This document shows, in pieces, positions 19,076 through 64,000 of a DNA stretch of 64,000 bases. Each line of letters starts with the position of its first letter. Position 1 is the stretch's first letter. The position numbers and the translations under genes are program-made. A model generated the notes under the pieces. The model ran no database searches. It worked only from the letters and a program-made list of their open reading frames with translations, and was not told where the DNA came from. The DNA is from Candidatus Dormiibacterota bacterium (GTDB taxonomy: Bacteria; Chloroflexota; Dormibacteria; Aeolococcales; Aeolococcaceae): positions 204,015 through 268,014 of the forward strand of contig JAFARE010000001.1 of assembly GCA_019245575.1 (NCBI GenBank), given 5' to 3'.

Positions 19076-19151
19076 GTTTCCCTGTGCCCGAACGCGTAAC
19101 CGCCCAAGCGCGCCGTGCGTTCCCCGGTCGAGTGCGCCCGGAGCACCGCCA

Positions 19152-19715
19152 ATGACCCTCCCGCGGGCGTACGAGGATCAACTCGTCGAGAGGGCCAAAC
19201 AGGATGCCGAAGCCTTTGGTGAGCTTTATGACCACTACTTCGGCCAGATCTACAGATTTGTGTACAGCAGGCTCCACGAGCAGGAGGCTGCCGAGGACGT
19301 CACGTCCGAGGTGTTCTTCAAGGCCCTGCGCGCAATCGGGCGGTACCGGCCTTCTGGGCACCCCTTCAGCGCCTGGCTCTACCAGATTGCAGTCAACGCG
19401 ATCAATGACCACTATCGAAGCCGCCGGCCGACGTCGAGCCTGGAGTCGGCGATTGCAGTCCCCGACCCTCAGCGCCCTGTCGCCGAGCGGGTTGCGGACA
19501 GCGCTGAGGCTGCGCGCGTCTGGTCCGCCATCGACTCCCTCCCTCCACAGCAGAGGATGGCGATGACCCTCAAGCTCGGCGAGGACCTCAAGCTGGCCCA
19601 GATCGGCCAGATCATGGGCAAGAGTGAGGGCGCCATCAAGCTGCTGATCCACCGCGGCATGATCGGGGTGCGCCAGCGCCTGGGCGTCGTCGTGAGCGTC
19701 GAGGAGCGTGCCTGA
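19152..19715 (+). CDS. ECF-type RNA polymerase sigma-70 factor
   Basis: Region 2 FGELYDHYFGQIYRFVYSRLHEQEAAEDVTSEVFFKAL; region 4 LPPQQRMAMTLKLGEDLKLAQIGQIMGKSEGAIKLLIHRG. Confidence 0.93.
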   Translation: MTLPRAYEDQLVERAKQDAEAFGELYDHYFGQIYRFVYSRLHEQEAAEDVTSEVFFKALRAIGRYRPSGHPFSAWLYQIAVNAINDHYRSRRPTSSLESAIAVPDPQRPVAERVADSAEAARVWSAIDSLPPQQRMAMTLKLGEDLKLAQIGQIMGKSEGAIKLLIHRGMIGVRQRLGVVVSVEERA

Positions 19716-22033
19716 TGGCCCGCGAGCGGCGCCCGCGGCGCAACAGCCACAACGGGAAGGGCAGCCTGCCACCCCCGTGGCTCTCCGGCTGGTTCGACCC
19801 TGAGCTCAAGGAGCTCTTCGAGAAGGAGCCCGAGCTCTACGAGACCGCCCATCTGCTCCGCGCCTCGCGGCCGGAGGCGCAGCCGGACGACCAGTACCGC
19901 CGCCGCCTCCGTGCGTCCCTGATGGCTGAGGCCGAGGGGGCGGTCGGCCGCCAGGGGCCCCTGCGCCGCTGGTTCATGCCCCGGCCGCGCCATCTCGCCT
20001 GGGGCGGGGCTGCCGCCGGCGTGGCCCTGGTGGCCGCCACTGCGCTCGCCCTCTTCTCGACGCACATGCAGGACCATCAGACCGTCACGGCGTTCTCGGA
20101 CGTGGCGGCGCTTCACTCGGTCAGCCCCGAGCAGGCCGTGACCGTGGCCTTCAACCAGCCGATGGACCACGCCGCCGTGGTCGCCGGGCTACGCATCCAG
20201 CCGGCCACCGAGATCACCACGGCGTGGCAGGGGAACAGCCTCGTGATCACGCCGGTGCACCACTTCGCCGGCAACACGCCGTACACGGTCAGCATCGCCC
20301 AGGCGGCCCTGCGCACCTCCATCGGCACTGTGGCCGCCGCGCCGCTCGTGATCACGTTCGGAACCGCCGCGACCCCGCCCCCCGTGGGCCAGACCAGCAG
20401 CACGCCGGAGCTCCAGCCGGCGCAGCTGGGCCAGGCTGCGAGCGGCAGCGGCGTCGCGTTCGCGCCGGACGGGTCGGTGGTCGCCGAGGCCGGCATCGTC
20501 GGCACCGCCGGCGCCACCGCTCCCCCCTCAGGCACGGCGGCGCCCACGTCGACCCCCACCGCGGCGCAGTCGCCCGCGGCCACCGCCACCGGCTCGGGCG
20601 TGCCGGCCGGACCCGCCCTGGTCTCCTTCGCAGGCCCCGGCGCCCAGCCGGTCGTGCTGGGCAAGGCCGCCGAGGCGGTCGGCTTCTCGCCGGACGGGAG
20701 CCGACTGGCCGTGGCCGAGGCCGCCGGCGAGGGCGCCAGCCAGGTGATCGTCGCGGCGGCAGACGGCAGCAATGCCTCCGTCGTGGCCACCAGCGGCAGC
20801 CCGGTCGTGGGCGTCGCGTGGCCCGGCGCGGGGCGCCTCGTCTATGCGACTTCTGACGCGATACATACGATCGACCTGCCCGGAACAAGCGCCACCGTCA
20901 CGCTGCCGTCCAGCGCCGGGCCGGTGACCGCGCTCTCGCCCGACGGCCGCCACGCATACCTGGCCCCCGCCGCCGGCACCGGCGGGATCCTGCTCGACAT
21001 CGCTGACGGCTCCACCCGGACCCTCACCGGGTCGGTGAGCCAGGTGGCCTTCAGCGGCGACGGCGCCACGGTCGCGTGGGTCGACCAGTCGGGCGGGCAG
21101 CCACGCCTGCTCACCTCGCCGGTTGACCGTGATGCCCCAGCGCCCGTCTCAACGCTCGACCCCGGATCGCAGCTCACCCTGGCCGCGGTGAGCCACGACG
21201 GTGGCGAGGTCGCCTATTCGGTGAGCGGCCCCTCCCAGAGCGAGCAGCTCGTGGTGGCGCAGCTGCCCAGCGGCGCCGCGCTTGCGCTCGGGCCGGCGAC
21301 ACACGTCGCAGCCTTCGCGCCGCAGGGCGGCTCGATCGCGTACGTCGCCGCCGGCGCCTCTGGCTCCGTGGTCGAGCTCGCGCCCATCCCCGGGTATGTG
21401 CGGCCGCCCGCCGCGATGGTCCCCGCCCCCGCGATCGACGCGCTCAACGCCTTCGTCGCCGCCCAGGTGAGCGGCAACGCCGGACGGCTGCACGACCTCG
21501 CCGGCAGCGGCTTCGACCCCGTGGCGCTCACGCCGAAGGGCCTGTCCCGCGCCTACACCATCGACGCGTCCTCCTCGTCGCCCGGGAAGGTGTCGGCCGA
21601 CGTCGACCTCGTGGTCGACCCGACGTCGCATCACCAGGTGACGCGCGTCGCCGCCGAGACCCTCACGCTGACGCGCAGCGCAACGGGCGATGGATACCTC
21701 GTCACCGCGCTGGACGTCGCGGCGCTGCACGACCAGCCGGCAGGGCCGCACGTCGTGCGCGTCGCCGGCGGGCCGAGCGCATCGCACTACGTGGTCCAGG
21801 TCACCTTCGACAGCGACCTTGCCGCGGCCAGCGTGCCCGGCGCCATCACGGTGTCCGACGACAGCGGAACGGTGCTGCACGGGACGACCGTGTACGACGC
21901 CAACACGCGCGTCGCCACGGTGACGCTGGACTCGATGCCCGCCGGGCCGGTCACGGTGAAGGTCGACACGTCGCTGATGGACGTGAGCCGGCAGGCCCTC
22001 GCCGCAACCGTGACCGCCGTCACCGGCGGCTGA
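19715..22033 (+). CDS. Membrane-anchored putative anti-sigma partner with extracytoplasmic Ig-like and beta-propeller-like repeats
   Basis: TGATG overlap with ECF sigma gene; cytoplasmic N-terminus, one TM (AWGGAAAGVALVAATALALF), SbsA/Big_5-like segment (AVTVAFNQPMDHAAVVAGLRIQP), repeated blade-like SPDGS.L/FSGDGATVAW segments. Confidence 0.7.
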   Translation: MARERRPRRNSHNGKGSLPPPWLSGWFDPELKELFEKEPELYETAHLLRASRPEAQPDDQYRRRLRASLMAEAEGAVGRQGPLRRWFMPRPRHLAWGGAAAGVALVAATALALFSTHMQDHQTVTAFSDVAALHSVSPEQAVTVAFNQPMDHAAVVAGLRIQPATEITTAWQGNSLVITPVHHFAGNTPYTVSIAQAALRTSIGTVAAAPLVITFGTAATPPPVGQTSSTPELQPAQLGQAASGSGVAFAPDGSVVAEAGIVGTAGATAPPSGTAAPTSTPTAAQSPAATATGSGVPAGPALVSFAGPGAQPVVLGKAAEAVGFSPDGSRLAVAEAAGEGASQVIVAAADGSNASVVATSGSPVVGVAWPGAGRLVYATSDAIHTIDLPGTSATVTLPSSAGPVTALSPDGRHAYLAPAAGTGGILLDIADGSTRTLTGSVSQVAFSGDGATVAWVDQSGGQPRLLTSPVDRDAPAPVSTLDPGSQLTLAAVSHDGGEVAYSVSGPSQSEQLVVAQLPSGAALALGPATHVAAFAPQGGSIAYVAAGASGSVVELAPIPGYVRPPAAMVPAPAIDALNAFVAAQVSGNAGRLHDLAGSGFDPVALTPKGLSRAYTIDASSSSPGKVSADVDLVVDPTSHHQVTRVAAETLTLTRSATGDGYLVTALDVAALHDQPAGPHVVRVAGGPSASHYVVQVTFDSDLAAASVPGAITVSDDSGTVLHGTTVYDANTRVATVTLDSMPAGPVTVKVDTSLMDVSRQALAATVTAVTGG

Positions 22034-63295: not shown

Positions 63296-64000
63296 GTGAG
63301 CGGACCCGGCGCCTACCTCAGCGTCATCCTCTACACCCTGCCCGGCGCTGTCGTGGGACTCGTCATCCACGAGCTGGCGCACGCGGCGCTCTCGCTGCGC
63401 GCGGGAGACATCTCGCCGCGGCGCGACGGACGCATGACGCTGGATCCCCGCCGCCACCTCGATCCCTTCGGCGTGCTCGCCCTCGTCGTCGCCGGCTTCG
63501 GCTGGGGCCGGCCGGTGCACCTCGACCCGGCGCTGCTCCGCTCGCGCGGTCAGCGCGCAGCGGTCGCGGCGGCTGGGCCGCTGGCGCACCTCGCTGTCGC
63601 CGCGGTGTTCGCCGTGGCGGCGCGCGTGGCGCAGCTCGCGTCCGGGATCGACGTCGGCGGCTTCGTCATGCAGGCGCAGACGAGCGCGCCGGCGATCCTC
63701 CTCGGCGTGCTGCTCCAGGGGTTCTTCATCAATGTCGCGCTCTTCGTGTTCAACGCGCTGCCGCTGCCCGGGCTCGACGGGTTCGCCGTGCTGCGCAGCC
63801 TCCTGTTCACGCGCATGCCGCGCGTGTTCCAGCTCCTGGAGATCAACCGCTTCGTCGTCTACGCGCTCGTGGTGATCGTCGCGGTGGCGGTTCCGGAGGC
63901 GACCGGCGGCGCTGTCAATCCCTTCGCCGCGATGACGGTGGGCGCGGCGACGCTGCTCTTCTCGCACGCGGTGGAGCCGGGGGTCAGCCCGATCTTCCCG
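63296..64000 (+). CDS. Site-2 protease (M50) family protein, truncated by window end
   Basis: GTG start read directly from sequence; VIHELAHAA (HExxH) and FNALPLPGLDG (NxxPxxxxDG); no stop before the window edge, so it is absent from the ORF track. Confidence 0.88.
   Translation, partial: MSGPGAYLSVILYTLPGAVVGLVIHELAHAALSLRAGDISPRRDGRMTLDPRRHLDPFGVLALVVAGFGWGRPVHLDPALLRSRGQRAAVAAAGPLAHLAVAAVFAVAARVAQLASGIDVGGFVMQAQTSAPAILLGVLLQGFFINVALFVFNALPLPGLDGFAVLRSLLFTRMPRVFQLLEINRFVVYALVVIVAVAVPEATGGAVNPFAAMTVGAATLLFSHAVEPGVSPIFP

Follow-up and report, generated by a model that had tools for sequence, protein, structure and literature searches.

In the class Dormibacteria, a BldN-like ECF sigma factor and the membrane protein encoded directly behind it constitute a pair with a distinct sensor layout and a non-zinc head that lies outside all of the family models searched. 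We consider it likely that this pair is an autoregulated system in which the membrane-bound partner serves as the anti-sigma factor and the sigma factor drives a cell-wall regulon. The pair is located in a 64-kb stretch of DNA (hereafter “the window”) from a member of Candidatus Dormiibacterota. The operon, the topology and domain folds of the partner, the class-wide conservation, the invariant promoter, the excess of its motif, and the association of that motif with particular genes were all computed here. Dormibacteria are a soil class that is almost unstudied, almost uncultured, and without genetics. The class now gains a testable circuit of sensor, sigma factor, promoter, and targets, and because the promoter is invariant, the regulon can be predicted for each Dormibacteria genome. 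We regard this testable promoter and regulon as the most valuable product of the analysis. Further, the findings link BldN-type sigma factors to cell-wall synthesis beyond the Actinobacteria.

The operon and its distribution

The locus is laid out as follows:

19095..19121, + strand: ECF promoter CGTAAC-N17-CGTT, predicted to be autoregulatory; GTAAC starts 56 nt 5' of the sigma ATG
19152..19715, + strand: BldN-like ECF sigma factor, 187 aa; Pfam Sigma70_r2 and Sigma70_r4_2, with sigma2 at about aa 25-92 and sigma4 at about aa 122-170
19715..22033, + strand: non-zinc, anti-sigma-like membrane partner, 772 aa; its start overlaps the sigma stop by 1 nt

The preliminary description of this DNA had placed an ECF sigma factor and its partner, translationally coupled through TGATG, at 19152-22033. 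Both statements hold. The sigma factor matches only the Sigma70_r2 and r4 models of Pfam, with no sigma3 domain, which is the domain content of an ECF factor; both open reading frames are present, and the TGATG at 19713-19717 has one base common to the sigma stop and the partner start. With regard to ECF group, the nearest NCBIfam model is that of the BldN family (TIGR02952), although the score of 136.7 bits falls below the curated cut-off of 206.45. The closest match in the Protein Data Bank is BldN itself, in its complex with RsbN (6dxo_A; E 3e-32; 115 bits vs 95 for SigW).

Of the 110 Dormibacteria genomes, 103 encode the full-length partner, including 36 of the 37 of high quality, and its named bearers are Candidatus Dormiibacterota, Dormiibacter among them. 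In the seven class genomes that have no partner match, the sigma gene lies at or near a contig end (four genomes) or falls under the sigma threshold (three). Among 301 genomes of the phylum, no full-length partner was detected outside Dormibacteria; the out-of-class matches covered only a propeller or only Ig, or else were large Big_5 proteins, and we rejected them as family members. Conservation of the pair throughout the class, together with the 1- or 4-nt overlap of the two genes at most class loci, shows that the pair is neither a product of chance nor an artefact. Pairs of orthologous sigma factors are on average 60% identical; in the partner the mean pairwise value is 44% for the head, 42% for the first Ig domain, 27% for the propeller, 28% for the NTF2-like domain, and 35% for the second Ig domain. 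BldN and RsbN likewise combine a conserved sigma factor with a rapidly evolving partner (PMC4255298).

Sigma factors of Patescibacteria (L098-L109) are 36-44% identical to that of the window and mostly adjoin short partners of about 150-180 aa, which may represent minimal anti-sigma factors of a similar kind.

The sequence GTAAC-N17-CGTT occurs only once in the 64-kb window, at 19096-19121, where 0.03 matches are expected in the whole window. In 89 of 92 non-redundant loci it is located 44-62 nt 5' of the sigma start (shuffle mean, 0.045), and other spacings were never encountered there. A conserved motif 5' of the sigma factor's own gene is the expected signature of autoregulation, and it suggests that the operon is controlled in this manner.

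Architecture of the membrane partner

We modelled the partner with AlphaFold2 (AF2) using 82 orthologues (pLDDT 84.2; pTM 0.63). The following segments (all on the + strand) were delineated:

19796..19942, + strand: cytoplasmic three-helix head, aa 28-76, the proposed sigma-binding domain; from alignments, with AF2 helices at 29-35, 39-50, and 59-76 at low pLDDT (~55-70)
20003..20059, + strand: single transmembrane segment, aa ~97-115; hydropathy in 82/82 orthologues, AF2 helix 100-115 at low pLDDT
20090..20365, + strand: first Ig-like domain (Big_5), aa 126-217; Pfam PF13205, E 2.6e-12, well above the cut-off; AF2 pLDDT mostly >90
20408..21394, + strand: seven-bladed beta-propeller, aa 232-560; 28 AF2 strands by our own count; TolB by profile and fold
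20501..20608, + strand: Thr/Pro/Ala-rich disordered loop within the propeller, aa ~263-298; AF2 pLDDT ~47-65 between propeller strands, with variable length in the alignment
21422..21718, + strand: NTF2-like (ketosteroid-isomerase fold) domain, aa ~570-668; Foldseek 3hx8, 2z77, and 4ovm, prob 1.00, TMt ~0.5-0.56, E ~0.02-0.06
21752..22024, + strand: second Ig-like domain, aa 680-770; Foldseek CopC TMt 0.74, SbsC domains rmsd 2.4

The absence of the zinc-coordinating HxxxCxxC motif and the presence of one transmembrane segment, both read earlier from the single sequence, extend to the whole family: the motif occurs in none of the 82 orthologues, and hydropathy identifies the membrane segment in all of them, in agreement with the AF2 helix. 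The window's partner contains no cysteine at all and has no zf-HC2 or RskA domain according to Pfam. RsbN defines the anti-sigma class ASDIII, which has a membrane-anchored cytoplasmic domain of three helices, helices 1 and 2 binding sigma4 and helix 3 binding sigma2. The AF2 model of the window's partner may have a layout of this type: three helices are followed by the transmembrane segment, at a head pLDDT of ~55-70. The alignments reveal two conserved stretches in the head, DPEL...F and DP.FR..LR..L. No match to the head was found among the known anti-sigma family models searched, and a head profile run against the Protein Data Bank failed to retrieve the 6dxo chain of RsbN even when E values up to 10 were allowed; we therefore do not claim homology of the head to RsbN.

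The genome of the window encodes other ECF sigma factors with membrane partners. A second BldN-like ECF (L180:3024-3931, contig C40) is paired with a membrane protein of 108 aa that has no ectodomain. Another ECF sigma factor (L183:2345-3546, contig C17) is followed by a 224-aa protein having a possible cytoplasmic head, a segment of transmembrane or Tat-like character, and, outside the membrane, a Rieske [2Fe-2S] domain; it is a possible redox-sensing anti-sigma factor. Comparison of the head with these two partners gave no significant match (probability 11.6% for L183 and 0.4% for L180). A third (L182:2400-4195, contig C5) shows translational coupling to a single-TM protein of 408 aa that has no Pfam match and a propeller-like look.

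In the ectodomain, Pfam confirms the Big_5-like segment, and the suspected PD40/TolB-like repeats do form a propeller. From a single sequence the latter is weak (PD40, WD40, and TolB at E 0.01 to 1e-5), but with the 82-member profile it is clear, TolB being the best natural match (E ~3e-18). TolB is also the top Foldseek match to the modelled fold (E 8e-11; AF2 pLDDT mostly >90). Domain parsing of an AlphaFold model, which had been proposed as a check, thus yields both the propeller and the Ig folds. The preliminary description needs revision at two points. The Thr/Pro/Ala-rich segment is not a linker that follows the propeller, but a loop between its strands. The C-terminal Ig-like segment exists, with a CopC/SbsC-like fold, but an NTF2-like domain ahead of it had been overlooked. 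Modelled separately, this C-terminal pair reaches a pLDDT of 95.8. At the level of sequence, the C-terminal region has no match in the Protein Data Bank, and both domains were assigned from fold; low-scoring matches of the region to lectins and GFP were set aside as chance. We found no description of an Ig-propeller-NTF2-like-Ig architecture in anti-sigma factors in the literature, of which our coverage was partial. Taken with the conservation and the operon structure, the fold supports well the view that the partner is an anti-sigma-like sensor of the non-zinc type, anchored in the membrane and bearing Ig and propeller domains outside it, for which the binding of the sigma factor is a prediction.

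Predicted regulon and proposed mechanism

Over the Dormibacteria genomes, CGTAAC-N17-CGTT occurs 583 times vs 188 for the reversed pattern, which served both as the control for counts and as the source of decoy sites. In 176 out-of-class genomes of the phylum the corresponding counts are 552 and 1373. The excess is present in the class and absent from these other genomes; it therefore accompanies the sigma/partner pair.

Among the 46 non-sigma sites with DNA fetched, from eleven genomes, 17 have a peptidoglycan gene just 3', with 28-110 nt between CGTAAC and the start codon. These genes comprise nine transglycosylases/class A PBPs, three LytR-CpsA-Psr (LCP) proteins, one L,D-transpeptidase, and four glmS; the tally recognised Transgly, LytR_cpsA_psr, YkuD, or glmS genes. 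None of 30 decoys from fourteen genomes lies at a wall gene (Fisher p 5e-5, which is indicative only, because the genome sets for sites and decoys overlap without being identical and related genomes are not independent). The decoy ORFs encode GH94, an epimerase, CofD, and similar proteins, with no wall synthesis among them. The remaining 29 of the 46 sites are not 5' of recognised wall genes, and part of the non-sigma sites will be chance occurrences. The window's own genome has few motif sites. Among them are sites 5' of the sigma gene, of glmS, and of a gene for a secreted protein, the latter two genes starting 41 and 35 nt, respectively, past the start of CGTAAC; glmS is the sole wall gene, and it is in other Dormibacteria genomes that the PBP and LCP targets were identified. 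Two TGTAAC sites in this genome (L212 and L214) were dropped, as they are inside long ORFs.

Lipoproteins also recur at motif sites. A conserved single-TM protein of 63-64 aa, with no assigned function, recurs 3' of the motif in several genera (L291:1536-1724, L282, and L278), and a serpin gene in another genome (G002, L233) is found 61 nt 3' of a copy.

It is common for an ECF sigma factor to be held by a membrane anti-sigma factor encoded next to it. Under the mechanism that we propose, the two genes would form one autoregulated operon, and the N-terminal three-helix head would tether the sigma factor to the membrane. The ectodomain, with its Ig, seven-bladed propeller, NTF2-like, and second Ig domains, would monitor the state of the cell wall, and a wall signal would release the sigma factor via conformational change or regulated proteolysis. 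The free sigma factor would then transcribe from CGTAAC-N17-CGTT promoters, raising its own operon together with class A PBPs/transglycosylases, LytR-CpsA-Psr proteins, L,D-transpeptidase, glmS, secreted proteins, and lipoproteins. We infer the sigma-binding role of the head, the wall signal, the route of release, and the identity of the sigma factor that reads the promoters. The idea that the ectodomain senses an envelope ligand, put forward earlier, is likewise one that we infer, now with the predicted peptidoglycan regulon behind it. As to proteolysis, the candidates in the genome are M50 homologues only. One Peptidase_M50 (site-2-protease-like) match is on the same contig, at 63353-63877 of the window, and the genome's strongest M50 is on contig C32.

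Might the partner be an anti-sigma factor and yet some other ECF, for instance the C40 paralogue, read the motif, so that the wall regulon does not belong to the window's sigma factor? The genome has several further ECF sigma factors, one of which scores 127.8 bits against the BldN family model. However, it is the window's sigma gene that the motif precedes with such constancy, the exact GTAAC-N17-CGTT was not found on the C40 contig, and the motif excess tracks the class that bears the pair; this explanation is accordingly improbable. We give still less credence to the notion that the partner is a co-activator, or a membrane tether required for sigma activity, and no inhibitor. It would accommodate the lack of a sequence match to known anti-sigma families, but the gene order, the overlap, the topology, and a small, helical head in the cytoplasm are all typical of anti-sigma partners, and BldN, the closest solved relative of the sigma factor, is inhibited by such a protein (PMC8103513).

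A more serious contender, albeit one that we do not favor, is that the regulon serves growth or development, as that of Streptomyces BldN does, and that wall synthesis is tuned in normal growth, not under stress. The BldN-like sigma factor and promoter and the high conservation of the sigma factor accord with this possibility, and glmS and PBPs are growth genes too. On the other hand, a large, variable ectodomain paired with a conserved sigma factor suggests the sensing of an external state, and the Streptomyces SigE stress response controls this very set of PBP, LCP, and L,D-transpeptidase genes (PMC6767563). Returning to the anti-sigma sensor and its cell-wall regulon, we tentatively raise a broader idea: the system could be a class-defining form of wall surveillance, in which a lineage-wide ECF sigma factor and an undescribed sensor architecture read the status of the wall directly and BldN-type promoters drive peptidoglycan synthesis. 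If this is true, BldN-type signalling started as wall control, and its developmental use in actinomycetes came later.

Comparison with known systems

The closest counterpart is the BldN-RsbN system of Streptomyces, which supplies the nearest solved relative of the sigma factor, a nearly identical promoter, and a non-zinc, membrane-anchored anti-sigma factor. To our knowledge, RsbN has no ectodomain as large as the Ig-propeller-NTF2-Ig assembly of the Dormibacteria partner. RsbN blocks BldN using three helices (PMC8103513, PMC7406223), and rsbN is BldN-dependent and diverges much faster than its sigma factor (PMC4255298). BldN recognises CGTAAC-N16-CGTTGA (PMC2375139); the spacer is thus 16 there and 17 here. 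Beyond the ectodomain and the spacer, the systems differ in that the window's sigma factor scores below the BldN-family cut-off, that no similarity of the head to RsbN was found by the head profile, and that BldN targets chaplins, rodlins, and bldM, whereas the predicted targets here are wall-synthesis genes.

The SigE envelope stress response depends on the CseB/CseC two-component system and is not known to be governed by an anti-sigma sensor encoded alongside. In Streptomyces coelicolor, the SigE regulon includes PBPs, L,D-transpeptidases, and LytR-CpsA-Psr proteins (PMC6767563), and the predicted target set parallels it, in that PBP, L,D-transpeptidase, and LCP genes have predicted promoters. 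The sigma factor is a different one, however, and the SigE promoter is AAC...TC.

Elsewhere in the phylum, a locus of another class (L199:398-3065) has a similar layout: an ECF sigma factor precedes a single-pass partner whose anti-sigma domain is N-terminal and whose ectodomains are Big_5 and LGFP. Its sigma-binding head differs, being of the zinc type (ZAS/ASDI; zf-HC2/RskA_N), and no such domain is present in the Dormibacteria partner. Finally, members of ECF57 also tie a propeller-type sensor to an ECF sigma factor. In that group C-terminal WD40-like repeats are fused to the sigma factor itself (PMC8999054), whereas in Dormibacteria the propeller is extracytoplasmic and is carried by a separate partner.
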